Origin: a virus
Virus record (IMG/VR): IMGVR_UViG_3300034073_000285
Span: 1-23,519 of that record
Length of the DNA: 23,519 nucleotides
Direction: 5' to 3' (one strand)
Shown in pieces: positions 5,839-23,519 of this stretch. Numbering within the stretch: the first letter of the stretch is position 1; each line of letters opens with the position of its first letter. Position numbers and translations under genes: made by a program. A model generated the notes under the pieces. It saw only the letters and a list, made by a program, of their open reading frames with translations, searched no databases and had not been told where the DNA came from.

Positions 5839-7710
5839 TTATTTAATTCTAGGACCACGAGCACCAGACTTTGCACCTGCTGGTCTACCACGTCCTCGTT
5901 TTTGAGTTTGATTATCATCTTTTGCATCGAAACCTTGTTCGTCTTTTTCACGCTCTTTTTTAGCGTATTCAGAACCATAGGTTCCAGAGTGACGATATAC
6001 GCCACCCTTTGGTTCATATTCGAGCATCATCATAAATTCTTTATAAGATAACATTTCTGTTTCCTCTTTCTTTGTTCCTCTGTCTGCTTCGAGTTTAGCA
6101 GCAATCGCCATTTCACGACGCTTTTCTTTGCTCTTACCTGCGAACTGTGGAGCATCAGATGCTTGGAAATCTTTAATAACATCACCCATCTTTGATGTGG
6201 TAAGATTAATTTTTTCATCTAACTCAACTTCTTCTTTGGCTAGACGATCAATTGCTTTATTAACACCATCTTGACGCTTCCAAGATTTTTTCTGATAATG
6301 ACCAGCTAATTTTAAGCCAGCATCTTTTAGATTTTTATTACGACGACCTTTAGCATCAAGTTCAAAATCCTTTGACATTTTTTGATTCATACGAGAATCG
6401 TGTGATGCTTTCTTAGCATAAGATGCAAGAGTAGATTTGTTCAACTCATCTAATTCTTCAGCTTCTTCCTCTACCATTCCAGTGCGACGTTTCTCACCTT
6501 CGATGTATGAGTGTAAGGATTCAACTTCACTCATCACTTTAGAAAGTTTATTCTGATACCATTCTTCAACTTCACCACCCATATCAATGTACTCTAGAAT
6601 TTCTTCTGCAGCATATTTGATAAAGTGTAGTTGAGTCTGAGCCATTTCCATTTTCTCAGAAGTCTCGTCTTCTTCCTTCATAACTTTCTTCATACCCATC
6701 TTGGCAAGATGTTTTGCAGTTGATGGACCAATACCGAATTTACCTGGAACTGCAGAAGGATTCTTCTTTGGTTTGTCAGGAGTAAATGGAAGATCGTCTT
6801 CTTTCTTCTTATCAGTTTCTTCTTTAGTTAAACGATTAACTGCTTTGTTGATACCGTGCATACGCTTAACTGCTTTCTTAACATCTGGCTTGGCATCATC
6901 GTAATCTGATTTCAGATGCTTGTCAGCAGTTTTTGCATCCATACCACGGCTGATGTTATGTGCATAGTCAGCACCAGCCAATGTTTTCTTGTGGGTAGCA
7001 TCAGCAGTTCTGTTAGCCATATCAACAGATGCCTTTGAAACATATGAGCCGAGAGTCTTCTTTGAGATCTCATCGATCTGCTCAACTTCTTCATTAGTTG
7101 GATGACCAACACGACCCTTTTTAGTAGCCATGTATTCTTTATACTCTTTAGTTCCTTTGATATATTTTCTATCTGGAACTGGAGCAACAGGTGCTTGCTC
7201 TTTCATTTCTTCTTTGTCATCTTTCTTTTCAGAGTTATCAAAGACAATTTCTTTGTGAGACTTGCGACCAGATGGACCAACTTTATAGTCAGCACGTGCC
7301 ATACGATCTGCTGCTTCATCAATCTCTGTTTCTTCTTTTAGATCAGAGTGTTTAACTTTGGTAGCACCACCATTGTTAGCACCTTGGAAATGAACTTCAT
7401 CACCTTTGCGGCGAGCAGTCCAATGTTTTCCATCTTCAGTTTTAAACTTGTGCTCTTGTTCGTCTTTCAATTTAGCAATTGCTTTGTGATGTTCTGGATG
7501 CAAAGGAATAGAAAAGTCTGCGCCATGGTGAACAGTTTTCATAGTTCCCCAAGAATACTTCTTGGTTTCTACTTTTGCTTCAGTTAGCTCTTCTGATTCT
7601 TCTTTTCTTAGAAGTTTAAAGTCGTGCGCATCGATTTTACCATTCTTATTCTTATCGATCTTGTGCTGCTTACCTTTAAGTGCTTCTAAAAATTGTGTAT
7701 AAGATTTCAT
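5839..7710 (-). CDS. Large charged modular internal-head-type protein
   Basis: 623 residues, very rich in K, E and D. Seen in order: a leader MKSYTQFLEA resembling a T4 capsid targeting sequence; a canonical EF-hand loop D19 to D30 (DKNKNGKIDAHD, ligands D, N, N, D, D); two related modules of about 80-90 residues (209-298 and 417-494), each beginning IDEI/LDEL-x-K-x-TL and ending NKAxxRLxKEE; a helical module at about 351-412; a second leader-like MLSYKEFMMMLE at 553-564; and a C-terminal AT-hook-like RGRGRPAG at 605-612. Modules are separated by acidic linkers containing (L/I)xE, the recognition type of the T4 prohead protease. Inference: a packaged or scaffold protein processed in the head. 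A CGGAG site and a late-promoter-like motif lie upstream. The precise role is unknown. Confidence 0.6.
   Translation of the reverse strand: MKSYTQFLEALKGKQHKIDKNKNGKIDAHDFKLLRKEESEELTEAKVETKKYSWGTMKTVHHGADFSIPLHPEHHKAIAKLKDEQEHKFKTEDGKHWTARRKGDEVHFQGANNGGATKVKHSDLKEETEIDEAADRMARADYKVGPSGRKSHKEIVFDNSEKKDDKEEMKEQAPVAPVPDRKYIKGTKEYKEYMATKKGRVGHPTNEEVEQIDEISKKTLGSYVSKASVDMANRTADATHKKTLAGADYAHNISRGMDAKTADKHLKSDYDDAKPDVKKAVKRMHGINKAVNRLTKEETDKKKEDDLPFTPDKPKKNPSAVPGKFGIGPSTAKHLAKMGMKKVMKEEDETSEKMEMAQTQLHFIKYAAEEILEYIDMGGEVEEWYQNKLSKVMSEVESLHSYIEGEKRRTGMVEEEAEELDELNKSTLASYAKKASHDSRMNQKMSKDFELDAKGRRNKNLKDAGLKLAGHYQKKSWKRQDGVNKAIDRLAKEEVELDEKINLTTSKMGDVIKDFQASDAPQFAGKSKEKRREMAIAAKLEADRGTKKEETEMLSYKEFMMMLEYEPKGGVYRHSGTYGSEYAKKEREKDEQGFDAKDDNQTQKRGRGRPAGAKSGARGPRIK
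6229..6462 (-). repeat. Second copy of the internal protein module
   Basis: Encodes residues 417-494 of the 623-residue protein: starts LDELNKSTLASYAKKASHD and ends RQDGVNKAIDRLAKEE. It matches the copy at 6817-7086 at both ends, while the centre differs in sequence and length. A diverged protein-level repeat, not a recent DNA duplication. Confidence 0.7.
6817..7086 (-). repeat. First copy of the internal protein module
   Basis: Encodes residues 209-298 of the 623-residue protein: starts VEQIDEISKKTLGSYVSKAS and ends RMHGINKAVNRLTKEE. A related start (EEQIDEVSSDLVKKA) also occurs in the 886-residue protein at 8488-11148. Confidence 0.7.
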
Positions 7711-8234: not shown

Positions 8235-8501
8235 TCACCATGCCTTACAAGACCAATATCTTGCTTTATCTTTTGGACCAGGATTGTCGCAGTTGTGTCG
8301 TGCACGGAAAGACTTACGACGACCAGGAATATGTTTCTTGATAGTCATATTCTTATCGCCAAAGTTAACCTTGACAACATTACCATTTGCATTCTTAACA
8401 AAAACTTTAGACTTCTTTACGTCACCAGCCATAGGTTTATTTAAAGGAACTTCTCTTCCTTGATATTCTGCTTCGGCGAGCCACTCTTTAAAACGCAACA
8501 T
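8235..8501 (-). CDS. Small basic protein with capsid-targeting-like leader
   Basis: 88 residues. Seen: the leader MLRFKEWLAE followed by A, which fits the capsid-targeting pattern with an L-x-E cleavage site; then a compact domain with NVVKVNFGDKNMTIKKHIP and the ending SFRARHNCDNPGPKDKARYW plus SCKAW, with two cysteines and a histidine that could bind metal. The C-terminal domain occurs in many T4-like marine phages, often as a module of larger proteins; its function is unknown to me. Start overlaps the preceding gene by 14 bases. Inference: a small packaged protein processed after residue 10. Confidence 0.6.
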   Translation of the reverse strand: MLRFKEWLAEAEYQGREVPLNKPMAGDVKKSKVFVKNANGNVVKVNFGDKNMTIKKHIPGRRKSFRARHNCDNPGPKDKARYWSCKAW

Positions 8502-11433: not shown

Positions 11434-11771
11434 CTTCCTCTCCATGCGTCTGCTACAGTGTCAACTCGGACACGATTAATTTTAAGAACTGACTCACAAA
11501 ACTTTTCATTACTAGATGTATTGGCTTTCTTTAAAGCAGACTCTAATTCTTCTATGGATTTCGCCTGTGGGTCTTTTCTAAGAGAAGCATAAACCTTTAG
11601 TTGCTCTACTTTACCAAATAATTTATTCCAATCTTTATCTTGACAATTTGTCTTATCAATGGCAACTTTAACTTGAACAAGATTATCGAACAATGCGCCA
11701 TCGTGCGGAATTGGTAGGATGAAAGAACATCCAGTTAACAGAACAGAAAATACTACAGCAGCTAGTTTCAT
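11430..11771 (-). CDS. Small lipoprotein, unknown function
   Basis: 113 residues from the ATG at 11771, which overlaps the stop of the ligase-like gene as ATGA and has AAGGA eight bases upstream; the in-frame ATG at 11780 abuts that site. Seen: a textbook lipoprotein signal MKLAAVVFSVLLTGC with the lipidated cysteine at residue 15. The mature part is about 98 residues, helical, with two further cysteines (in NCQDKDW and FCESVL) that could form a disulfide in the periplasm. The residue after the lipidated cysteine is S, so outer-membrane sorting is expected. Possible roles include superinfection exclusion or envelope protection late in infection, but nothing in the sequence decides this. Confidence 0.7.
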   Translation of the reverse strand: MKLAAVVFSVLLTGCSFILPIPHDGALFDNLVQVKVAIDKTNCQDKDWNKLFGKVEQLKVYASLRKDPQAKSIEELESALKKANTSSNEKFCESVLKINRVRVDTVADAWRGR

Positions 11772-12997
11772 CGTTGCCATCCTTTTATAATATCTGGTGA
11801 GAAGTTAGACTTACTAAACTCGAGGCGATCGACAATCTTCACAGCACCACCAGTTAAGTGGTCAATTGCCACAAATCCTTCCACACCAGTAACTTTGTAT
11901 CCATTAGTAGTGCGTAGGAATGTATTGATGTGTCCTGCTTCATTCATTTTATCCACAATCATCTGTTTTGCTGCAGCAAGAAGATTTACCAGATCAAAGA
12001 TCTTAATAATTTCTGCTTGGTCATGGTCAGTAAAAAACTTCAGAACACGTTTACGCTTTTCGTCTTTTCCTGCTTTGCCCTTTTCAGTCTTGAGTTTATC
12101 AATCTCTGCCTGATACTTATCGTGGATATAGTTAAATAATCCAACCACATGAGCATGAGTATTGGTAACTTGTAGTCCCTGACGAACTTTAGAGTTGTTA
12201 TAGGTATTTACTGCAGCATTTAACTCTTCATCATCTTTAATAGCGTTCAGAGTTGCTGCGGGGATTGACTGGAAAATCTTTCCAGCATTTGATAGGATGT
12301 TGGTCAACTGAGCAGTTTCTGCTGCAGTGAAAGTGGCAGTGCCAGAATAGTCTTTGTAGTTTGCATCATCCATCCAGACAGAAGGAACTTTTGCCATATG
12401 TGAAACAATAGATTGCCCGAATGATGCTTTCATTTCTTCGAAGGAACTACCAGTGTATGTTGTATGCCAAACCACGCCAATCTTTGCTTTCATAATTTGA
12501 GCAGCAAGTGGACTGTTTAGTGGAACTGCATACACGATAGTGTTTGGATGGAATGTCACATATTTAACTCCATCGATGGTGACGACTTGTTTGTCGTCAG
12601 TGAACATCAGGTCACCTTGATAAACTCCAGACTTGATTCCGAGTTTCTTGAACTCAGCGAGTGCTACTTTGAGTTTGGCAGCAAGATCACCTTGCGTGTC
12701 TGCATCAATCTCTGCTGGAGTTTTATAGACTTTGGGATTCTTATTGAAGACACCTTTCTTTGCTACAAAGAACTTGCCATCTGTTGGATCGATTCCAGCA
12801 AACACGGCAGGTGCACCATCCCATTTTACTGTTGCGGTAATTTTGTTTGTCGCATTACCAGCGAGCATGTCACGTAGGTCACGTAGAAAATTGATAGCCT
12901 TGCGTGTGCCATCTACACCACCATCGAATACCAAATCTTCCACATGGGTCATATGGGTATTCTTTTGTTCAACGATAAAACTCTTTAGACTCTTCAT
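11768..12997 (-). CDS. Ligase-fold nucleotidyltransferase-like protein with capsid-targeting-like leader
   Basis: 409 residues. Seen: the leader MKSLKSFIVE followed by Q (residues 1-11), fitting the capsid-targeting pattern with I-V-E as cleavage site; VKWDGAPAVF with K58 in a KxDG context, the motif I of covalent nucleotidyltransferases (DNA and RNA ligases); GVYQGDLMF at 124-132 in the place of motif III; VTFHPNTIVYAV; a long helical insert at about 230-360 with a lysine-rich stretch; VEGFV at 372-376 in the place of motif IV; and AVKIVDR at 385-391 with K387 in the place of motif V. The spacing between III and IV is much larger than in T4 ligases. Inference: an adenylating enzyme joining nucleic acid ends, or a domain that lost activity, packaged in the head. 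Preceded by a sigma70-like promoter. Confidence 0.6.
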   Translation of the reverse strand: MKSLKSFIVEQKNTHMTHVEDLVFDGGVDGTRKAINFLRDLRDMLAGNATNKITATVKWDGAPAVFAGIDPTDGKFFVAKKGVFNKNPKVYKTPAEIDADTQGDLAAKLKVALAEFKKLGIKSGVYQGDLMFTDDKQVVTIDGVKYVTFHPNTIVYAVPLNSPLAAQIMKAKIGVVWHTTYTGSSFEEMKASFGQSIVSHMAKVPSVWMDDANYKDYSGTATFTAAETAQLTNILSNAGKIFQSIPAATLNAIKDDEELNAAVNTYNNSKVRQGLQVTNTHAHVVGLFNYIHDKYQAEIDKLKTEKGKAGKDEKRKRVLKFFTDHDQAEIIKIFDLVNLLAAAKQMIVDKMNEAGHINTFLRTTNGYKVTGVEGFVAIDHLTGGAVKIVDRLEFSKSNFSPDIIKGWQR

Positions 12998-13077: not shown

Positions 13078-14022
13078 TTACCAAGGGTCTCCAGAGAGTT
13101 TCACGGAGGAAGCCATCTTTTCTGACTCGAATTTAAATCGAATCTTCATAATTTTCTTTTCCCCTGCCTTTACTCCAATGGATTCGTTACCGACTTTTTC
13201 TAGAGTCATAGGATATTTTCCGAGTGCCTCAAGTTTCTCGTTTTTCACTGGATCCATCACTGTGGCTTTGTATGGTGGTTTATTACCTTGTCCTGTTACC
13301 TTAATATATGGTGGACGTAAAATTTCTGCGTCCATCCAATCAGATAACAGATACTTCATTAATTCTTTTTGATTCATTCGATTAATGCGCACAAACAATT
13401 CATCACGCATTGCTGCTAGAATTTGTACACCAATCGCTTCAGTTTCTATTTTAACTTTTGGATTTGCACGAATGTATAATTTACGTTCTGTTGCACCAAC
13501 AGGTAGTCTGAATTTCTTAATTGTTTGGTCTAGTTGATTCTTATATTCATCTGCCAATGAGATATTTAAACTTCTGTCAACAGTACCAATACCTGGATTC
13601 TTAAAACCGATGTCGCCAGAACCTTGAGTTGCTTTGGCAGATAAACCAAGGAAACCTTTGGATGGACCATCTGAAAATTTCACTAGAATGTCAGTTGGGT
13701 TTTTCTTTTGATCAACTGGTTCACCAAAAGCGGATGTCATGGAGTTTGGTCTTGCTGTCCACCAGACTTGTTTCACTGGTGCTTTGTATCCATTTGCTTT
13801 AGCCCATTTAATAAATTCTGCAGCCATAGCAACTGCTTTACCTTGGGCGTCTTCTACTTCATGTGGTTGCGCTTGCTTCACTCGTTGTTCGTATTGGAGT
13901 TTAGCAGCATTGTCGAACCACTTATTTCCTGCGAGAACATAACCAGTGTAGATTTCATTAATGTCAGATAATACTGTATTCGCTGTAGCCATTTCTGTAA
14001 TATATTCTTTAAAAGTTTTCAT
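13078..14022 (-). CDS. PD-(D/E)XK nuclease-like protein with capsid-targeting-like leader
   Basis: 314 residues. Seen: the leader MKTFKEYITE, very close to the T4 internal protein III leader as I remember it (MKTYQEFIAE), with I-T-E as cleavage site; a helix with INEIYTGYVLAGNKWF that supplies E23; then PTDILVKFSD (D111) and GFLGLSAKATQGSG with S128-x-K130. E, D and (S/E)xK in this order and beta-strand setting resemble the PD-(D/E)XK fold of restriction-type nucleases, in which the second acid can be replaced by S. This fold call is an inference from few residues. The C-terminal part is basic. It starts six bases after the metallopeptidase gene, with no clear ribosome site, suggesting coupling. 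If right, it is an injected nuclease acting on host DNA. Confidence 0.5.
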   Translation of the reverse strand: MKTFKEYITEMATANTVLSDINEIYTGYVLAGNKWFDNAAKLQYEQRVKQAQPHEVEDAQGKAVAMAAEFIKWAKANGYKAPVKQVWWTARPNSMTSAFGEPVDQKKNPTDILVKFSDGPSKGFLGLSAKATQGSGDIGFKNPGIGTVDRSLNISLADEYKNQLDQTIKKFRLPVGATERKLYIRANPKVKIETEAIGVQILAAMRDELFVRINRMNQKELMKYLLSDWMDAEILRPPYIKVTGQGNKPPYKATVMDPVKNEKLEALGKYPMTLEKVGNESIGVKAGEKKIMKIRFKFESEKMASSVKLSGDPW

Positions 14023-14769: not shown

Positions 14770-15378
14770 TTATTTGGCTAAATGTTTCTCCAAAAACGCA
14801 AGAATCTTTCCCTGCTCCTCCAAGTTGGTATTATTAAACTCAGTGATATAGGGCATCAATTCAAAATTTGATAGTAGATTACTATATTTAGTTTCTCGAC
14901 CTCTTAGGAATTGCTCGGACTGGTCGGAACCTCTATCCTTATAGCGTTGTTCTAAAGTCTCTTTTGGGGCTTTTAGATAGACTACCTGCAAGTCGGTCTG
15001 GTCGAGTCCCATAGCGAACTCTAGGAAAGACTGATTAAAGATTCGATCGCCCTCGAATAGAACATTACAGTTATGAGTCTGGATCCACTTTTGGACCTCT
15101 GGTTGGACTGCCATCGATAGGCGATCTGTTCCTGCAAAAGTCTCACCTTCCTGATATTTACCTAGGATATAAAGATCCATTTCCTCATTATACATGGCGG
15201 AAATCAGCTTCGCTGGCTCACATTCGATCCAAGTTTTACCTTCCATAAACTTACGGAATAGAGTGGTTTTACCAGTTCCAGGTTGTCCACCCACAGCAAT
15301 TAGTTTTCTCACTTTTAATTCTCTCGTAGTAACAGACATTGAAATTTTGTCAGTAAAGGCTAGTTTCTCGACTGGCAT
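14770..15378 (-). CDS. P-loop kinase, candidate hydroxymethyl-base DNA kinase domain
   Basis: 202 residues. Seen: Walker A GGQPGTGKTT at 30-39 after a beta strand KLIAVG; NVLFEGDRIF (about 104-113) as a Walker-B-like strand with D111; LQVVYLKAPKETLEQRYKDRG with the lid-type basic segment and GRETKY. This is the shape of small nucleoside/polynucleotide kinases. It is unlike T4 gp1 dNMP kinase in its P-loop and length. The gene two places upstream encodes a helical protein resembling the helical part of 5-hydroxymethyluracil DNA kinases, so I infer that this could be the kinase half acting on hydroxymethylated bases in DNA. A free nucleotide or RNA end kinase is the alternative. It starts one base after the stop of the 140-residue gene. 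Confidence 0.7.
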   Translation of the reverse strand: MPVEKLAFTDKISMSVTTRELKVRKLIAVGGQPGTGKTTLFRKFMEGKTWIECEPAKLISAMYNEEMDLYILGKYQEGETFAGTDRLSMAVQPEVQKWIQTHNCNVLFEGDRIFNQSFLEFAMGLDQTDLQVVYLKAPKETLEQRYKDRGSDQSEQFLRGRETKYSNLLSNFELMPYITEFNNTNLEEQGKILAFLEKHLAK

Positions 15379-15379
15379 A

Positions 15380-15802
15380 TTATGCGTTCTTTACATCATT
15401 AATAAGATTCTTTAATTCTTCTTCAGTGAAGACCCATGCACGACCCAAGAAATGATGGACATCTGCATTCACATCGTGTCTCTTGGTGAATGTTATTTTC
15501 TTCATTATATCGCGAGACATATTGCGAGCCAAATTTTCTTTAATCTCATCTGCATATGTAGGAACAGTTTCTTTTAATTTTAGTAACTCTTGTTCCTGCA
15601 CTTTGTGATCAACTGTAATCCTATTAAAAGAATAACGATCTAAAATTTCGTCAGTTATTTGTTCCATAGCGAGAGTCCCATATACAGTATTTGCAGTAAG
15701 AATATTGCTATTGGTGCTTGATATGGTAATTGTGTTCATATCAATAGTTCCATCAGCCATAGATGGATAAGTTACAGAGTTAGTCATTAAATCATCATTC
15801 AT
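15380..15802 (-). CDS. Small protein of unknown function in the modification operon
   Basis: 140 residues. Seen: an N-terminal third rich in S, T and N with beta pattern (DMNTITISSTNSNILTANTV), a middle charged helix (KVQEQELLKLKETVPTYADE), and a C-terminal part with HHFLGRAWVFTEEELKNLI. No catalytic motif, signal or membrane helix is seen, and I do not recognise a family with known function. Its ATG overlaps the stop of the 339-residue gene as ATGA with GGAG upstream, and the P-loop kinase starts one base after it. Lying between the two halves of a putative kinase, it could be a subunit, but a late structural role is equally possible given the beta-rich N-terminus. Confidence 0.6.
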   Translation of the reverse strand: MNDDLMTNSVTYPSMADGTIDMNTITISSTNSNILTANTVYGTLAMEQITDEILDRYSFNRITVDHKVQEQELLKLKETVPTYADEIKENLARNMSRDIMKKITFTKRHDVNADVHHFLGRAWVFTEEELKNLINDVKNA

Positions 15803-16818
15803 GCGAACATCTCCAATCCTTCAAGTAGTGGTTCTTCATCATTAAACATCCATTCTAAATTTTCAAGTTTACCAGTTCTCAAAAATGAACTGAATCTTTC
15901 TTTATTAATACCACGTTTGTCATCCAAACGAAGATCGATAGTTTCATTTCTTGCTTGCCAAAGAACATCCCAATCTATTCCATACCATCCGTCTTTTTCG
16001 ACTTGCATAATTTCTTCAGCTTGTCGATCAAGATAGTAACCAAGATATCGACCATGATGTTCCCTAAAAATCTTTTTAAAAGAACAGAGGCAAGTTTCCA
16101 TAGTGAAGTAGTCAACAACATGGGCTAACTCTGGGAACCTGTTTCTCGTTTCCTCGATAATCTCTCTCGCTTGTGACTCAAGTCTCGCATAATCTGCTCT
16201 AGACAATTTTCTATCCAAATCGTGCTCTTGTGCAAGGGCATAAAGAAGTCCATTACGATGAGAGCGAGAGCCATCATAATCATCAAGCATGAGGCTAGTA
16301 GGAGTAATCCTAATCCCAGCAGTATGCTTAAGATGCTGAAGATAAAACCAAGTGGAATAACGACCAAACTTGTGCAACCCACTTTTAATGCTTGTCCACA
16401 AAGCTGTAAAGTTTGCCTCCTCATTGTCTCCATAATAATTCTCCAATGTTTCTCGTTGTGTTTTATTCCCAATAAATTTTTGATAAGACTCAAACATGGA
16501 GGGCAAATGACCTTTGTTCCACTTCGTGTCAGTCTGATAACGCAGTCTTTTATAATTAGCAGTATTCCATTGAGTAATACGATCTACAGTCGCCAATTCA
16601 AAGTCTGGAAACTCGTTTAAGAGAATCCAAGATGTTGGTGCATAATACGTATTACCATATAGCCAAGCAAACCAAAGACGTTGCTCATCATTATGTTCAT
16701 AACGCTTGTGTAGATAATTAGTCATCCACACTGCTGGGTCACAGTCATCATATTTTAATGACCATGCATACCAACGAATAAATGCTTCTCTACGATTTTC
16801 TGCTAAACGATAATCCAT
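15799..16818 (-). CDS. Helical protein resembling the 5-hydroxymethyluracil DNA kinase helical domain
   Basis: 339 residues. Seen: REAFIRWYAWSLKYDDCDPA near the N-terminus, then QRLWFAWLYGNTYYAPTSWI, LLNEFPDF and WNTANYKRLRYQTDTKWNKG, an aromatic-rich helical pattern that I associate with the family first described as alpha-glutamyl/putrescinyl-thymine pyrophosphorylase clade 2 and later linked to 5-hmdU DNA kinases. A P-loop is absent here, but a P-loop kinase is encoded two genes downstream, so the enzyme may be split. It has several cysteines (LCSF region) and ends PLLEGLEMFA, loosely like the clamp-binding tails of its neighbours. Its ATG overlaps the acetyltransferase stop as TAATG. Family assignment is from memory of the pattern and needs a profile search. 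Confidence 0.5.
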   Translation of the reverse strand: MDYRLAENRREAFIRWYAWSLKYDDCDPAVWMTNYLHKRYEHNDEQRLWFAWLYGNTYYAPTSWILLNEFPDFELATVDRITQWNTANYKRLRYQTDTKWNKGHLPSMFESYQKFIGNKTQRETLENYYGDNEEANFTALWTSIKSGLHKFGRYSTWFYLQHLKHTAGIRITPTSLMLDDYDGSRSHRNGLLYALAQEHDLDRKLSRADYARLESQAREIIEETRNRFPELAHVVDYFTMETCLCSFKKIFREHHGRYLGYYLDRQAEEIMQVEKDGWYGIDWDVLWQARNETIDLRLDDKRGINKERFSSFLRTGKLENLEWMFNDEEPLLEGLEMFA

Positions 16819-17459
16819 TATACTAAAAATTCTTCAAGTGATGGTTGTTCCATTAAAGCATCACGCAACCATGCTTTACCAACTGCATCAATTGCTGCTT
16901 GCGTTTTTGCTTTCTTCTTATCACCCCACTTATAGGATTCTAATCCCTCTGCGCGGAATTGATCTCTTGCCTTATAAGGTGGCAGAGCCGAGATTGGATT
17001 TGCGATAGCAGCAGCTCTAAATGCGAGTTGCTCATTACGAGTGGGGAATAGAATTTGGTCAGAGCGGAGACTACCTGTGGGGTCAACTGCCCAGAAGATG
17101 AGACCATTTCTGTAATGCCAAGTGACTGAAGTTGGCGTACAAGATATTTTAAGTCTTTTAGATTTTCGCTCTTCAACTGCGTACCTAATCCAAGATTCCC
17201 AACATTTGCTGGCGTATCCATTTCCTTCTTTTCCTTCCAATGTGACTATCTCATACAAATTGGCATATCCATCACGATTGTGTGTGGCAAAAATTAATGA
17301 AACAATTTCTCCATTAACTTCATACGCCATAGGTGGTGCTTTATCGTAATTGTGAAAACGATACCACAATGAATGTGCAGCTGATAAGAACTTTGTGTTC
17401 TTACCAGCTGGGCTGTTTTTAATTAGTTCTTCTACTTTTGTAGAATTAACAAAGTTCAT
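16818..17459 (-). CDS. GNAT-family N-acetyltransferase with clamp-binding-like tail
   Basis: 213 residues. Seen: strands YEVNGEIVSLIFAT and LYEIVTLEGKEGNGYA, the latter ending in the acetyl-CoA pyrophosphate loop (GxxGxGxA, G76 to A83), followed by helix KCWESWIRYAVEE, strand RLKISC and the motif-B-like WHYRNGLIFW. This is a GNAT core in about residues 30-130. The extra 80 residues have no known domain and end PSLEEFLV, nearly the same as the tail of the dioxygenase and of the DNA polymerase. Expected to move an acetyl group onto an amine; in this context the amine could be on a modified DNA base (inference). It overlaps the amidotransferase gene by 14 bases and shares TAATG with the next. 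Confidence 0.75.
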   Translation of the reverse strand: MNFVNSTKVEELIKNSPAGKNTKFLSAAHSLWYRFHNYDKAPPMAYEVNGEIVSLIFATHNRDGYANLYEIVTLEGKEGNGYASKCWESWIRYAVEERKSKRLKISCTPTSVTWHYRNGLIFWAVDPTGSLRSDQILFPTRNEQLAFRAAAIANPISALPPYKARDQFRAEGLESYKWGDKKKAKTQAAIDAVGKAWLRDALMEQPSLEEFLV

Positions 17460-18129
17460 AATGTTGATAATCTACTGCACTTGTAATATTTTTACGCTCA
17501 ACGCTCATTGCAAGACATGCATCAAATGTGACGTATGTATTGATTAAAAATTCTGTAGTAAACCCATCTACACCTGCTCGATAAGGAATATCTTTTGTAG
17601 AAGTAATTATACATCCATTATTGAAAGTTGTCAAATATAATGGACGCTTACCATTACGATAAGAACGAAGAGTTTTGTCTGCTCTTAACTCACAAACACC
17701 CATAGACATGTTTGGAAATTCTTGCAAAGGATTCTCAGAATGCAAAACTAACTCGCTATCGTTTTTAGTGATGCAATCATATCCATACAACTCTTTCCAA
17801 TTCTCTGGTAACTCTTGCGTGATAACTCCATTGTGAACAATACTTTTTGTATCATGAAAAAGTGGTTGATTGTATTCTAGATCGCTGGTGCTATATCGAC
17901 AATGAGCAATCATATACAAATTACCATCTTCGTTTAGATATGATTCAAAATCAAATGGAAACTTGTCAGCAGAGACTGGAAGTCTCTGTGTAACAATACT
18001 ATTGTTTTTAACATAAGAGATGCCAGTTGCATGCATTCCTCGAATCTTAGACTCGAGGATTATACGTTTGATCATCTCCAACTGATTAACAGATGGATTC
18101 TGAACGATTGTTCCTACGACAGCACACAT
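17446..18129 (-). CDS. Class II glutamine amidotransferase (Ntn hydrolase), stand-alone
   Basis: 227 residues. Seen: C2 directly after the initiator Met (MCAVVGTIVQ), to become the N-terminal nucleophile; RGMHATGISYV (30-40); HCRYST with R78 for the glutamine carboxylate; HNGVI with N100 and G101 forming the oxyanion hole; and NDSE with D124. Without the Met these lie close to the GlmS/PurF numbering (C1, R73, N98, G99, D123). Such domains release ammonia from glutamine and are normally fused to a synthase; here the domain stands alone, so the acceptor must be another protein, perhaps the neighbouring modification enzymes (inference). Its ATG overlaps the dioxygenase stop as TAATG. Confidence 0.88.
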   Translation of the reverse strand: MCAVVGTIVQNPSVNQLEMIKRIILESKIRGMHATGISYVKNNSIVTQRLPVSADKFPFDFESYLNEDGNLYMIAHCRYSTSDLEYNQPLFHDTKSIVHNGVITQELPENWKELYGYDCITKNDSELVLHSENPLQEFPNMSMGVCELRADKTLRSYRNGKRPLYLTTFNNGCIITSTKDIPYRAGVDGFTTEFLINTYVTFDACLAMSVERKNITSAVDYQHYELC

Positions 18130-19490
18130 TATCCAAAGAACTCCTCAAGACTATTTTTCTCTGCTTCAGGATGGTACTTTAACAGTTCTTCACGACCAAG
18201 TTTCTGTTCGCAGTAATCATACCACTCTTGTGAGTCCCACATTCCTGGACTTACACCATTCCAAAGATGACGCATTGTACCATCTTCATAGAATTGTCCT
18301 GGATGCTCTTTGTTAGTTCTGCGTGACTCAACAAAATCATAACGACAATCTTCGTATTGTTTGCTACCAAGTTCAAGCATCTTCTCACGGAAGTAAACAA
18401 CCAATGAAACACGTTCTGCTTCTTCGTCACCAAGAACAATTGGAGTATTACCATGAATAACTTCATGATTGTTAATCAATAGTAGATCTCCTGGACGGAC
18501 ATTTACTGCCACACGATACTCAGGTGCAATCAAATACCCACCAGTGAAGTTACCATTGTTTGAAAGAACAAGAAGGTTAGACAAACCAGTATCCAGATCA
18601 CCAGCATCACGATGCGCTGCAGTTCTGAATGTCTTGTTGACAGTAATAGTAGTGAATGGTGTTCCTGGAACCAAGAATGCTGGATCGAGTTTCTTTGCAG
18701 CTTCCATCTGATTGTTATAACGCCATGGAAGTAGTTCTTTAAAACCACGAGCAAGAGATTGTAAGAATGGGAATGCCATGGCAAACTTCTCTGGTTCACG
18801 TGCAGTGTAAGATGTAGCACGACCATAAGGAATGCGCGGATAACGATCGTACCATCCAGCGATGCCAGACATAACACCATTGGCATATGTCGTTGCGCAA
18901 ACATAATTCTTTTCTACATGACGTGCTTCTTTAATCATCTCAGATGGTTCGAGTTTGCGTGTCTTCTCAACCCACTCGCTGAACAAAAAGTTATCACGCT
19001 TAACTGCTTGAATACCCCAAACATTATTTCGTGTAGATGGTTTGTCAGTTTTGTTCTTATGCTTCTCTTTGAGAATCTCAATTGGATCTCCATCAAGCGA
19101 TGCTTTTGGATCCAAGAAATAATCTAGAACATCAGACTCATATTCAGTGACCCACTCACGATTACCAAGAGATTCTTTTCTTGGACCTGCAGCCATACCA
19201 CGATTCTGTGTTTCAGTTGCTGCCTCGCGCAGACCAATGTATGCCTGATCTTGTTCTTGTTTGTTGAAGAAGTTTTTGCGGAACTTAAAAATAATCTTAC
19301 GCTCGTCCATACCTTTGTCACAAGTGTTACATTCTTTATCACATGCAGCTTGTGTACCAAGATCGCAATCTGGTGGTGCGTAAACATCGCAGTCTTCTTC
19401 AACTAGAATGTCATAGTGACTTTCATCTAGAAATTGACCAAGCAAATGCTCACAATCATGTTTAGTTTGTGCTACAATAACCTTTGCCAT
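18129..19490 (-). CDS. TET/JBP-like 2OG-Fe(II) DNA dioxygenase with clamp-binding-like tail
   Basis: 453 residues. Oxidises a methyl group on a pyrimidine base in DNA if the family call is right. Seen: AHRDAGD with H293 and D295, the iron HxD; strands LSNLLVLSNNGNFTGGYLI and RVAVNVRPGDLLLIN; EVIHGNTPI with H346, the distal iron His; and ERVSLVVYFR with R360 or R368 for 2-oxoglutarate. This ordering and the TGLSNLLVL/GGYL segments are those of phage TET/JBP enzymes. The N-terminus carries a cysteine cluster (C34, C42, C50, C54, C57) that may bind zinc. The C-terminus is NSLEEFFG, matching the polymerase tail SLEDFFG. It starts nine bases after the gp41 helicase and opens the modification operon. 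A cytosine methyltransferase, which known phage TETs need, is not in this window. Confidence 0.8.
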   Translation of the reverse strand: MAKVIVAQTKHDCEHLLGQFLDESHYDILVEEDCDVYAPPDCDLGTQAACDKECNTCDKGMDERKIIFKFRKNFFNKQEQDQAYIGLREAATETQNRGMAAGPRKESLGNREWVTEYESDVLDYFLDPKASLDGDPIEILKEKHKNKTDKPSTRNNVWGIQAVKRDNFLFSEWVEKTRKLEPSEMIKEARHVEKNYVCATTYANGVMSGIAGWYDRYPRIPYGRATSYTAREPEKFAMAFPFLQSLARGFKELLPWRYNNQMEAAKKLDPAFLVPGTPFTTITVNKTFRTAAHRDAGDLDTGLSNLLVLSNNGNFTGGYLIAPEYRVAVNVRPGDLLLINNHEVIHGNTPIVLGDEEAERVSLVVYFREKMLELGSKQYEDCRYDFVESRRTNKEHPGQFYEDGTMRHLWNGVSPGMWDSQEWYDYCEQKLGREELLKYHPEAEKNSLEEFFG

Positions 19491-19499
19491 TTATTTCTC

Positions 19500-20891
19500 C
19501 TAAAACTTAAATCCTTCGAACGACTCTGTCTTTTGCCTTCTTCCAAATGAACTTTTATCGAACATTGGTGTATCATCATCTTGTCCAGAATCAGATAATC
19601 CATCTTGAGCAGACGCTTCAGTATCATAAAGTTTCATCTTTGCTCTATCAATTCCAACAACGAATCTTTTATAAAATCCTGGATCATTATATCGATTCTT
19701 TAACTGCTTAACAATAATCTGATTCAATGCTTCTAACTCTTCATTACTAACTAAAGCAAACATAAAGTCAGCTGTTGCAGGCAAACCAAAAGATTCAGAA
19801 GTATCTTCTAGTCCTGGATCACTATTTGTATATCCAGAACGAGTAGTTTGAGTAGCTGAAACGATTGGAACATTGTACTCAACTGCCAGTCCTCTTAGTT
19901 CTTCTGCGATTGCCTTTACATATGTATAAGAGTTAATACTTCCACCTTGCTTCATTCTTTGACTTGCGCAGATATTCAAGTAGTCAATAAAGATAATGTC
20001 AGGCGTAAACTCTCTTTTTAACTTTAGTTCTTCCAATAATGCACGGAAATGACCTGCATGAGCACCAGCAGTTGGGTATTCTTTAATGATAAGTTTACCT
20101 TTAGTTTTGTTGGCAATTTTAGAGATACGATTCTCGTAAATATCTCTGTCAACCACCTTCAACTCATCCATGGTTAGGTTCAAAAGATTCGCATCGATTC
20201 GTTCAGCGATTCTTTCTTCTGCCATTTCCATAGTTATGTATAAGACATTTTTACCCTGATTTAAACATGAGCCAGCAACGTGACACATAAACAGAGATTT
20301 ACCAACACCTGTGCCTGCCAATGCAATGTTAAGAGTTTTCTTACTCAGTCCACCCTTCGTGATTTTATTAAACATTTCCAAGTCGAATGGAATCTTCTCT
20401 TCAACCCTATGATAGAAATCATAACGCGAATCATGATCTGCCAAATAGTCGTGACCAACATGATTGTCAAATGAAACGGCAAGTGCGTCAGATAGTATGT
20501 GAGGTATCGCATCTTTAGTATGTACCTTATCTCCCCCATCAATAATTTTGATCGAGGCTAGGATTGCATTATAAACTGCACGATCTTTACAGAATTTTTC
20601 TGTATTTTCTAGAAGCCATTCTTCATTGGATGGTTCATGATCGAGTGTGCGTACAAATTCAGCGACTTCATTTAATTCTTTATCGCTTAAATCTTTACGA
20701 TTTGAAAGTTCGATTGAGAGTATTTCTTTCGAAATCGGCTTGTTATACTTGTTAAAGAATTCTACAATTTCGTATGCGATGATAGATTCTTTTCTATCTG
20801 CAAAATACTCTCTCTTGATAAATGGAATAACTTTACGACAATACTGCTCATCATGAATCAGACTGCTCAGAATCTTTTGTTCTATTCTCAT
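19500..20891 (-). CDS. 41: Replicative DNA helicase, T4 gp41-like (DnaB family)
   Basis: 463 residues from the ATG at 20891 (a TTG one codon upstream is less likely). Unwinds DNA at the fork and partners the gp61 primase. Seen: an N-terminal helical domain (IEQKILSSLIHDEQYCRKVI), then the RecA-type motor with AGTGVGKS at about 192-199, ITMEMAEERIAERID, the Walker B strand DIIFIDYLNI at about 304, and VSATQTTRSGY with the sensor Q and R. The acidic C-terminus ends ESFEGFKF. It overlaps the gp40-like gene by 41 bases and directly precedes the dioxygenase gene. Gene order uvsX-40-41 is that of T4. Confidence 0.95.
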   Translation of the reverse strand: MRIEQKILSSLIHDEQYCRKVIPFIKREYFADRKESIIAYEIVEFFNKYNKPISKEILSIELSNRKDLSDKELNEVAEFVRTLDHEPSNEEWLLENTEKFCKDRAVYNAILASIKIIDGGDKVHTKDAIPHILSDALAVSFDNHVGHDYLADHDSRYDFYHRVEEKIPFDLEMFNKITKGGLSKKTLNIALAGTGVGKSLFMCHVAGSCLNQGKNVLYITMEMAEERIAERIDANLLNLTMDELKVVDRDIYENRISKIANKTKGKLIIKEYPTAGAHAGHFRALLEELKLKREFTPDIIFIDYLNICASQRMKQGGSINSYTYVKAIAEELRGLAVEYNVPIVSATQTTRSGYTNSDPGLEDTSESFGLPATADFMFALVSNEELEALNQIIVKQLKNRYNDPGFYKRFVVGIDRAKMKLYDTEASAQDGLSDSGQDDDTPMFDKSSFGRRQKTESFEGFKF

Positions 20892-21180
20892 CAACTCCGC
20901 CTGTATATACTAAATCGTTATTAGCAATACCTTGATGAATCAATTCAACAAGGATATCACCAATGTATTGTTCAAAAGGTTTTTTATCTGTCAGACCTTT
21001 GTCTGCATAATCTAAAATTTCGTATTCGAATTTAATGCTGACTTTATCATTTTGATCGTCTTCACCAAATTCTACTTTACCATAGGTATATACTATACCC
21101 TCAAACGCACCTTCTGTCAACTTAATTGCTTGGAGACCAGTTGATTTGCTCTCCATAACTACAATGGGTAGATTATTCAT
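20851..21180 (-). CDS. gp40-position protein (possible head vertex assembly chaperone)
   Basis: 109 residues between uvsX and the gp41 helicase, the place of gene 40 in T4. Seen: NLPIVVMESKSTGLQAIKLT, a strand pair FEGIVYTYGKVEFGEDDQND, KFEYEIL, and an acidic, disordered-looking C-terminus (GGVDENRTKDSEQSDS). T4 gp40 has been linked to head vertex assembly; similarity is claimed here from position and size with a pattern I recall only loosely. No catalytic motif. It overlaps uvsX by eight bases and gp41 by 41 bases, so all three are translationally coupled. Confidence 0.6.
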   Translation of the reverse strand: MNNLPIVVMESKSTGLQAIKLTEGAFEGIVYTYGKVEFGEDDQNDKVSIKFEYEILDYADKGLTDKKPFEQYIGDILVELIHQGIANNDLVYTGGVDENRTKDSEQSDS

Positions 21181-22243
21181 CGAACTCTAACTCTTCCAAT
21201 GCTTTATCCAATTCGTCAGAATTAACCATCTGCACAGTACCAATTGAATATTTGTTTTTTACAAACTCATAGAAAGACTTATCCATTAAGATTGGCATCC
21301 AAAAATCTTTTGTGTCAGTATCTTTAATGCGATATTTCTTTTCATCTGTCTCACCAGTAGAGACATTTACTTTTTGATACCAACCATTAGATGGTTTGAT
21401 TACATGACCACTTTCGAGTGCGAGATCCAATAGACCGCTCCACTTGCTAATACCACCATCAAAAGATACGCTAACAGGAATCTTAGATTTTTCTTTAACA
21501 TATCTACTCTTTTCTACGTTAATGATAAAGTTATAACCAGTCACTTCAGTTCCGTCTTTCTCTTGCTGACGACCAAGAATAAAGATGTTGTCTGCTGAAT
21601 AATAGGAACCAGTACCACCACCAACGATGTCTTTAGGATACAAACCAATCTCTTTATATGTATGATTCACGACAACCATTGGGATATCTTTAAGAGTCAG
21701 ATGTGGTGTTACCATACGGAATAAGGATTTCAATTGTTTCGCTCTAGACATATCCGCAACAGACTTACCTTCCATAGCATCTTCAACTTCTTTCTTGGAA
21801 GCAAGGTTGCCAATAGAATCAATAATGATAATTAATCGATCGCATCTCTCTAGATTTTGTAGCTGTTGCATGACATCAAACTTCAATTGTTCAATGTCTG
21901 TGATAGGAGTATGAAGAACCCTATCCATATCAATACCAAATGCCTCAAAGTAAGACTGTGGTGTTCCAAATTCAGAATCATAGAACAGCAACGCAGCATC
22001 TTCGTATTTGTCCAAGTAAGACTTTGCCATTAGCAAACTAAATGCAGTTTTAAAGTGCTTTGATGGACCAGCCCACATTGTAAGACCTGGAGTAAGACCA
22101 CCATCAAGACGACCAGAAAGAGCCAAATTGATTACTGGGATGGAGGTAGGAATCATATCCTTCTTGGTGAAGAACTTCGACTCCGACAAGACAGCAGTAT
22201 CTTTGATAGTGCTGTTCTTTTTAATTTTATCTAAAATACCCAT
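21173..22243 (-). CDS. uvsX: RecA-like recombinase UvsX
   Basis: 356 residues. Forms filaments on single-stranded DNA for strand exchange, recombination-dependent replication and repair. Seen: Walker A GPSKHFKT at 59-66, a variant typical of phage UvsX; LLFYDSEFGTPQSYFEAFGI; Walker B RLIIIIDSIGNL; SRAKQLKSLFRMVTP; PMVVVNHTYKEIG; and VGGGTGSYYSADNI, the DNA-binding loop region. It ends in an acidic tail (LEELEFDE), as expected. The ATG at 22243 has an AAAGGA site and follows a clear sigma70-like promoter with a leader of about 22 bases. It is the first gene of the transcript that continues through gp41 into the modification genes. Confidence 0.96.
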   Translation of the reverse strand: MGILDKIKKNSTIKDTAVLSESKFFTKKDMIPTSIPVINLALSGRLDGGLTPGLTMWAGPSKHFKTAFSLLMAKSYLDKYEDAALLFYDSEFGTPQSYFEAFGIDMDRVLHTPITDIEQLKFDVMQQLQNLERCDRLIIIIDSIGNLASKKEVEDAMEGKSVADMSRAKQLKSLFRMVTPHLTLKDIPMVVVNHTYKEIGLYPKDIVGGGTGSYYSADNIFILGRQQEKDGTEVTGYNFIINVEKSRYVKEKSKIPVSVSFDGGISKWSGLLDLALESGHVIKPSNGWYQKVNVSTGETDEKKYRIKDTDTKDFWMPILMDKSFYEFVKNKYSIGTVQMVNSDELDKALEELEFDE

Positions 22244-22271
22244 AGCGATTCCTTTTTATAAAGATGTATGT

Positions 22272-22300
22272 ATTATACAATATATTTTGATGCAAAGCAA
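22272..22300 (-). promoter_or_regulatory. Sigma70-like promoter of the uvsX-gp41-modification operon
   Basis: TTGCTT (22295-22300) and TATAAT (22272-22277) on the minus strand are 17 bases apart. The -35 box begins immediately after the stop of the oxygenase gene. It shares TTGCTTTG and GTATAATACATAC with the primase promoter, which argues for one regulated class. Confidence 0.8.
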
Positions 22301-22852
22301 CTAAGGATTGTTTTTGGAATGAGGAACATCAAACACAAAGTTAATTCTAACACAATCTCCAACATTCTTTGCAGCATGTGGTAGTTTGTTATTAAACCAC
22401 AATAATGTTCCTGGTTCTACTTTTACTGTTTCTTCTCCAACAGTGTACTCATAAACACCTTGTATTGCAAGATGGTATCTATCTCTTGTAAGATAATATG
22501 TACCAATATCAATATGTTTTCCAACTTCCCCACCAACTGGTAAAGATAGAAAACCACAACGACTAAACTTTTTAAAATTGCGTTTTAGGAATGCAATAAT
22601 TTCTGTGTGGTGATGTATTGCTGGAGTTGGAACACACAACTCGCTGTCACCAACATACTCATCTACAGAACGAACTGCTCCCATAACTAACTGCAATACA
22701 CCTGCTTGTACTGCAGGAAATCCCCACTCATCTACCAAATCATGAGCACCCTCAATATTCTTTTGAGCACCCCAATCTTCTGGATACTGATGCAACTGTT
22801 TTAGTATCTTAGAAACATTGATTCCTGTTTTTATAATTCTAATGTTATCCAA
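22301..22852 (-). CDS. 2OG-Fe(II) oxygenase, aspartyl/asparaginyl beta-hydroxylase-like
   Basis: 183 residues. Seen: GGEVGKHIDIG with H113 and D115 as the iron HxD, then YHLAIQGVYEYTVG, the strand GTLLWFNNKLPHAAKN with H159 as the distal iron ligand, and VRINFVFDV with R169 for 2-oxoglutarate. This is a complete small double-stranded beta-helix enzyme of the type annotated in marine T4-like phages as prolyl or aspartyl hydroxylase-like. The substrate is unknown: a protein side chain is the family norm, yet its place between the polymerase and uvsX leaves DNA or a replication protein possible. Its ATG overlaps the polymerase 3' end by eight bases, so it belongs to the polymerase transcript and precedes a new promoter. 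Confidence 0.85.
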   Translation of the reverse strand: MDNIRIIKTGINVSKILKQLHQYPEDWGAQKNIEGAHDLVDEWGFPAVQAGVLQLVMGAVRSVDEYVGDSELCVPTPAIHHHTEIIAFLKRNFKKFSRCGFLSLPVGGEVGKHIDIGTYYLTRDRYHLAIQGVYEYTVGEETVKVEPGTLLWFNNKLPHAAKNVGDCVRINFVFDVPHSKNNP

Positions 22853-23519
22853 AGAAATCCTCCAGTGAAGTTTCCTCTTGCGTTTTCCATCCTAGTGGTT
22901 CGATAACAATCTGTAACGCATCAAGAAAAACTTTTTCGAATTGTTTATCATAATCTATGTATGCTTCCAATCCTAACTGTTTTGGTAAATGTTGGCTAAA
23001 GGCAATAACATCTTCTTGAATGGGATTCGGTGTGCGCAAATACACAAACTTAATCTTATCGCCATCACGAATCGCCTGATACTTCTTATCTAATTTGAGA
23101 CGCTTCAAGTGATGATTGTAAAGCAACGCACCACGAACTTGAATAGGTGTTCCCTTTGTATAAATTGGAGAACCAGCATACTGTTTTATTCCATTACAAG
23201 AACGAGGAAACGCAATCTCTTCGACAGGCATCTTATCAAATTCTTTTCGGAAATCCATCACGTATTTGTGAAGATCTTTCTCAGTGCCGTGCAAAATAAC
23301 TTGTAACGAATCTTTAAGTTTGTCACGAATAACAGCAGGTGTACTCGACTTGACCATTTCCAAGCCCATAACTTTGATCTTAGGTTTCGCATATTGAACA
23401 CCCTCTGAGTTGTGAACATTAATAACATAGCGTTTCTTCGCAGTCCAGATTGCCTTGTCAGCCAAAACCTCACGCTTCATCTGCATCTTCTGAGCAAACG
23501 CATTCATGTAATCTGCCAA
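22845..23519 (-). CDS. 43: DNA polymerase, T4 gp43-like (partial, C-terminal end)
   Basis: The last 224 residues of a family B polymerase; the frame is open to the window edge, so the N-terminal part is outside. Seen: MKREVLADKAIWTAKKRYVI and IKVMGLEMVKSSTP, which closely follow the thumb region of T4 gp43, then the weakly conserved C-terminal thumb and the final SLEDFFG. T4 gp43 ends SLDFLFG as I remember it, the peptide that binds the gp45 sliding clamp, so the last seven residues are read as the clamp-binding tail. The apparent TTG start at 23519 is only the window edge. It overlaps the oxygenase gene by eight bases. Confidence 0.95.
   Translation of the reverse strand: MADYMNAFAQKMQMKREVLADKAIWTAKKRYVINVHNSEGVQYAKPKIKVMGLEMVKSSTPAVIRDKLKDSLQVILHGTEKDLHKYVMDFRKEFDKMPVEEIAFPRSCNGIKQYAGSPIYTKGTPIQVRGALLYNHHLKRLKLDKKYQAIRDGDKIKFVYLRTPNPIQEDVIAFSQHLPKQLGLEAYIDYDKQFEKVFLDALQIVIEPLGWKTQEETSLEDFFG

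Follow-up and report, generated by a model that had tools for sequence, protein, structure and literature searches.

Why should a DNA polymerase, a TET-like dioxygenase and a GNAT-fold acyltransferase end in almost the same seven residues? The question is posed by a 23,519-nucleotide stretch of viral DNA (IMG/VR record IMGVR_UViG_3300034073_000285, positions 1 to 23,519; the whole stretch is called the window here), part of the genome of a T4-like phage in which the tail-bearing genes all lie on the minus strand. The first-pass annotation, made from the letters alone, had placed SLEDFFG, SLEEFFG and SLEEFLV at the last residues of the three proteins. This was exactly right: the polymerase tail occupies 22848..22868, the dioxygenase tail 18132..18152 and the GNAT tail 16821..16841. 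We consider it likely that the tail is a portable clamp-binding C-terminal add-on, carried by the T4-type polymerase gp43 and by DNA-modification enzymes, which would tether TET, GNAT and probably an amino acid:DNA transferase (ADDT) to the sliding clamp gp45 and would thereby couple modification to replication. Both the binding and its timing are inferred.

The polymerase is represented by the C-terminal 224 amino acids (aa) of a T4-type family B enzyme, gp43, cut by the contig end (22845..23519; PHROG 262, E=4.6e-90), and the fragment is at most 57% identical to cyanophage gp43. The 453-aa dioxygenase (18129..19490; Pfam Tet_JBP, 2.2e-26) has HxD...H iron ligands that are invariant in 34 relatives, and its predicted structure matches those of Naegleria Tet1 and human TET2; domain, ligands and fold place it in the TET/JBP family. 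Its tail lies beyond the fold and was predicted with low confidence (predicted local distance difference test score, pLDDT, 53-71). For the 213-aa acyltransferase (16818..17459) the Pfam score was slightly below the cut-off. Its AlphaFold model (mean pLDDT 93.8) matched GNATs in Foldseek (E=3e-5, prob 1.0) and the acyl-CoA loop GKEGNGYA is conserved; by fold and loop the protein is a GNAT. Used as a query against the phage collection, it matched zero isolates. The 339-aa ADDT (15799..16818; PF18724, 1.2e-21) ends in GLEMFA (15802..15819), a diverged motif that falls just beyond the interval 16818-22880 named in the first-pass annotation.

A profile of independent clamp tails was made from the polymerases of T4, two cyanophages, P-HM1, C48C1, DLP6 and Cr30 and from T4 gp55 and gp33, and was scored on the C-termini of five related contigs against a background of 44,820 internal positions. 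In every one of the five contigs TET came directly after the polymerase (rank 2 among 74-272 genes; P per protein ~1e-4 to 5e-4), and GNAT ranked 3-6 (P ~1e-3 to 9e-3). Conservation was assessed on distinct C-termini from loci collected by protein similarity, blind to the tail, with the motif L-x-x-[FL]-[FL] required at the extreme end. All 67 GNATs had it, as did 88 of 90 TETs and 47 of 48 polymerases; ADDT relatives had LExF in 60 of 63 cases. For ten further genes at these loci, including those of the amidotransferase (0/74), the kinase (0/48), gp41 and uvsX, 0 of ~500 C-termini had the motif. Comparing C-termini among homologues, as had been suggested from the first reading, thus found the tail kept, and these counts strongly support selection on it in TET and GNAT.

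The TET linker, counted from a conserved HP up to and including FF, is 13-16 residues long and mostly has an entropy of 2-3 bits, in contrast to the near-invariant L and FF. It is variable and of low pLDDT; the GNAT tail is short and packed in the model. Distant GNATs end in NLEEFFG (homologue L237) or STLEFFL. Distant ADDTs end in SLESFFGDS, LESFFGDT, GLEEFMV or GLEEFF, and in the light of the first two the GLEMFA of the window is most plausibly a diverged copy. We agree with its earlier description as a weaker match. An equal standing of ADDT among the tailed proteins was rejected: its window tail scores at profile noise, and only the distant homologues make its membership likely.

The T4 clamp tails are SLDFLFG (gp43), SLDFLYEAND (gp55) and TLDFLL (gp33). 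These C-terminal motifs bind gp45 and are mutually interchangeable (PMC2988020); T4-type tails dock at a hydrophobic patch of gp45, and this face of the clamp also serves T4 late transcription (PMC7892883). In RB69 gp45 the polymerase peptide occupies that patch (1B8H). The tails studied here share with them the C-terminal position, the consensus [S/T]L[D/E]-x-hydrophobic-hydrophobic and the variable linker known from gp55 (PMC2988020). They differ in having FF in place of FLF/FLY and in their carriers, which in T4 are the polymerase and transcription factors and here also include DNA-modification enzymes. The consensus of the T4-type sliding-clamp-binding motif was found in the polymerase and TET; GNAT is weaker by profile yet fully conserved. 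In the relatives the late sigma factor gp55 has, near its C-terminus, VDLDDFLGDNN, NLDDFIEGD, SSLEVFFEEN or SSLDDFMEEGNV, at the site of the clamp-binding motif of T4 gp55 and followed, as in T4, by a few acidic residues. The clamp itself is encoded by relatives G001-G004, G006 and G011-G013. The tail, [S/T/N/D]-L-[D/E]-x-[F/L]-[F/L], is thus probably the local form of the T4-type clamp-binding motif, a judgement that we make jointly with that on clamp tethering. The PIP box, which binds the eukaryotic clamp PCNA (proliferating cell nuclear antigen) and reads QxxhxxFF, did not match the window tails, which have no Q three residues ahead of the hydrophobic position.

Polymerase and modifier tails appear to change together. 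In DLP6 the polymerase ends in TLDSFFA, TET in TLGDFFV and a relative of the TET-associated glycosyltransferases (TAGTs) in DLSSFFN; in C48C1 the polymerase ends in TLEDFFG, a Dam-type methyltransferase in TLDAFFG and TET in SLEEFFV. Cr30 combines DLSSLFD on the polymerase with SDLSKLF on a 308-aa glycosyltransferase-like protein, and L521 combines QVSLF with SVSLF on a TAGT. Scanning for proteins related to the L521 glycosyltransferase brought up nothing but that protein, so the covariation test rests on seven hand-aligned lineages, for which the permutation P was 0.0008 (0.03 minus the two most deviant lineages). This is modest evidence that the two kinds of tail tend to change alike across lineages. 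The L521 contig (145504 bases) has tails that look beta-clamp-like, yet a gp45 homologue is present. At the C48C1 locus (L004:8480-9364) the gene of the D12-type DNA methyltransferase directly follows that of the polymerase, and its TLDAFFG is added past the point where cyanophage Dam homologues stop, as would be expected of a portable add-on.

DNA patterns for SLEEFFG, TL[DE]EFFG and SLD[DE]FFG, each followed by a stop codon, were scanned over 2.9 million viral contigs. The 214 matches listed (at most 80 loci per scan) comprised 119 polymerases, 55 TETs, 38 other real proteins and 2 spurious ones, counts which tell which families can carry the tail and not its frequency within a family. Those 38 were 12 D12 adenine methyltransferases, 10 TAGT-like proteins, 7 probable N4/N6 methyltransferases (Pfam scores under the cut-off), 3 Mom proteins, 2 group 1 glycosyltransferases, 2 proteins of unknown family, 1 C5-methyltransferase and 1 SinI-like fragment. 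Besides gp43, the matches listed are therefore almost only from DNA-modification families. T4 core genes were on the same short fragment at 44 of 55 TET tail loci and at 32 of 38 other non-polymerase tail loci. The Mom of the T4-like Melnitz phage ends in TLEGFF. In ~85,000 bacterial and archaeal genomes the SLEEFFG pattern gave 27 matches, all on frames of at most 30 aa, and no real protein. Conservation, the variable TET linker, covariation and the spread to unrelated families strongly support the shared docking peptide of the first-pass annotation.

Some tailed proteins are of less familiar kinds. A 328-351-aa protein (PHROG 17781/13881) of T4-like contigs ends in NTLEEFFG (L334:3456-4511 and L294) and is a candidate DNA-modification enzyme. 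A 148-aa SinI restriction endonuclease-like protein (L402:899-1345; Pfam 6.7e-5) ends in SLDDFFG on a contig that also has gp43, gp41 and uvsX. Loose C-terminal matches in the whole-genome scans, namely a 320-aa protein near head genes (PLDFFIG), a 240-aa protein (LEGMQSFF) and an 83-aa thioredoxin-like protein (LLEFL), were judged unrelated.

Outside the T4-like group the TETs of S-CBWM1, HTVC112P and P12024L had no tail; S-CBWM1 has a polymerase-gamma type enzyme. TETs of phages in which a T4-type replisome was not detected (as judged by annotation, which for S-CBWM1 and P12024L covered part of the record) thus lack the tail. The Mom proteins of Mu and of Psychrobacter phage Y8A, also outside the T4-like group, were tail-free as well.

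Several observations weigh against clamp tethering. The gp45 gene is absent from the window and was found in relatives only. GNAT reaches no better than P ~1e-3 to 9e-3 by profile, its tail in this clade being FLV/FLK, not FFG; in the AlphaFold model this tail is a short, packed helix (pLDDT 79-83) and not as plainly free as that of TET. The ADDT tail scores at noise (P ~0.06). The pattern scans select for the very tail that they count, and the names of the tail-bearing families rest on one or two annotated members of each cluster, the others being assigned by clustering. A Shine-Dalgarno-like stretch for the next gene lies within 65 of 81 TET and 34 of 42 polymerase tails. Within T4-like phages the tail is optional, being absent from cyanophage Dam, T4 alpha-glucosyltransferase and T6 TAGT, and in T4 the share of glucosylation made by alpha-glucosyltransferase was not chiefly due to its binding of gp45 (PMC13216743). 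Modifiers without the tail beside polymerases that keep it, which had been named beforehand as damaging to the docking idea, were rare: the TETs of Cr30 (ending in GATLF) and L521 have lost or altered it, and in these two a glycosyltransferase, instead of TET, has a polymerase-like tail.

Could the tails bind gp45 and yet serve another process? Coupling to clamp-dependent late transcription or packaging is unlikely, although it is the likeliest of the alternatives: gp55 of these phages has the same motif, and the T4 process uses the same face of gp45 (PMC7892883). The genes, however, sit within a replication block in the order pol-uvsX-gp41-TET-GATase-GNAT-ADDT (GATase, glutamine amidotransferase), and protecting replicating DNA would need modification earlier than late transcription. 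We favour replication over late transcription because of this gene order.

It is less probable still that the tail docks on another partner (the clamp loader, the single-stranded DNA-binding protein, the helicase loader or the host beta clamp) or that it acts as a targeting signal with no link to gp45. The bacterial beta-clamp-binding motif, QL[SD]LF, is likewise a short hydrophobic clamp peptide, often at the C-terminus, and the L521 polymerase tail QVSLF resembles this pentapeptide. The window tails SLEDFFG, SLEEFFG and SLEEFLV have neither its Q nor its LF, and the host motif was rejected for them. Polymerase and gp55 share the motif of the window tails, and in T4 both bind gp45; moreover, the tail was found mainly in contigs with T4 core genes.

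The tail could also be a by-product of translational coupling, its codons serving as the ribosome-binding site (CTNGAGGAR) of an overlapping next gene. The stop codons of TET and GNAT do overlap the ATG of the following gene, and the Shine-Dalgarno-like stretches in TET and polymerase tails fit the idea. Such a stretch is, however, present in only 5 of 69 GNAT tails, in which the amino acids are near-invariant regardless, and on this ground the artefact was mostly rejected. Tail codons vary synonymously, Leu and Phe-Phe are left unaccounted for, the tail is never seen on GATase, kinase, gp41 or uvsX from these loci, and distant phages with different gene orders keep it, all of which makes this origin very improbable. 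Chance convergence of short acidic-hydrophobic C-termini has hardly any credibility: the motif is merely 6-7 residues long and ADDT taken alone sits at noise, but for TET and GNAT chance is refuted by the conservation counts (88/90 and 67/67 vs 0 of ~500 control C-termini) and by tail scans strongly enriched for polymerase and modification enzymes, with no tailed protein in the 85,000 bacterial and archaeal genomes searched with the single pattern SLEEFFG.

How might clamp tethering work? The gp45 trimer could hold the polymerase plus other partners, and TET, GNAT and probably ADDT would dock by their tails on the ring behind the fork, acting on the duplex that passes through it and modifying bases in fresh DNA. 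TET would hydroxylate a pyrimidine methyl group in situ, possibly that of thymine in place, as JBP does; a P-loop kinase would then activate the hydroxylated base, ADDT would attach an amino acid or amine, and GNAT or the amidotransferase would finish the modified base. We infer this chemistry as a whole. Three long relative contigs yielded no C5-methyltransferase, ThyA-type hydroxymethylase or TAGT, which is the reason for suggesting direct hydroxylation of thymine by TET; the missing C5-methyltransferase in particular would favour thymine over 5-methylcytosine as the TET substrate. In the thymidine hypermodification clusters of M6 and ViI, which include a 5-hydroxymethyluracil-DNA kinase and transferases, a P-loop kinase and a transferase likewise work on DNA after polymerisation (PMC6449724). 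Those phages make 5-hydroxymethyldeoxyuridine as a nucleotide, whereas the window has a TET/JBP enzyme and the three long relatives showed no ThyA-type hydroxymethylase.

For clamp-bound modification there is a precedent: T4 alpha-glucosyltransferase binds gp45 (Sommer 2004, as cited in, and confirmed by, PMC13216743). It too is a DNA-modification enzyme docked on gp45, but it belongs to another family and ends in QFDIITK, without such a tail. A more distant parallel is offered by eukaryotic DNMT1, bound to PCNA via a PIP box: there too a trimeric clamp holds a modification enzyme and so couples modification to replication, while motif and position differ and the enzymes are unrelated. For TET enzymes we know of no such route. 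In the literature searched, coverage of which was incomplete, we found no report of a clamp tail shared by TET, GNAT, ADDT, TAGT, Mom and methyltransferases; a common C-terminal clamp motif across modification enzymes appears to be the new part.

Five neighbours of the tailed genes encode proteins without the tail. Downstream of the polymerase, 22301-22852 encodes an Asp/Arg-hydroxylase-like cupin protein that is kept in relatives. It is followed on the minus strand by the UvsX recombinase (21173..22243; T4_UVSX_C, 8e-18), a gp41-like replicative helicase (19500..20894; DnaB_C, 2e-20) and, between TET and GNAT, a stand-alone class II glutamine amidotransferase (17446..18129; GATase_6, 6e-7). 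Beyond ADDT lies, also on the minus strand, a P-loop nucleotide kinase (14770..15378; Ploopntkinase3, Pfam 4e-9), possibly the base kinase of the pathway. Further on, four minus-strand genes (13078-14022, 11768-12997, 8235-8501 and 5839-7710) encode proteins with similar N-termini (MKTFKEYITE, MKSLKSFIVE, MLRFKEWLAE and MKSYTQFLEA), which resemble the capsid-targeting sequence of T4 internal head proteins; in relatives similar N-terminal peptides cluster downstream of modification genes. These four may be packaged internal proteins.

Phages with hypermodified DNA have a large genome that replicates fast and has to be modified before host nucleases meet bare DNA, and a shared clamp tail offers a simple, testable answer to how post-replicative enzymes keep pace. 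Replication-coupled modification would then be a rule of this phage group, beyond the single case of T4 alpha-glucosyltransferase, and a parallel to DNMT1-PCNA built from unrelated parts. A wider reading, to which we lean, is that gp45 serves as a general tool-belt: one peptide would have been added independently to TET, GNAT, ADDT, TAGT, Mom and several methyltransferase families, and the whole pathway would be carried on the clamp, modifying DNA as it leaves the polymerase. If so, tailed proteins of unknown function, the L334 family among them, would be new modification enzymes, and the last seven residues of a phage protein would be a way to find more of them.

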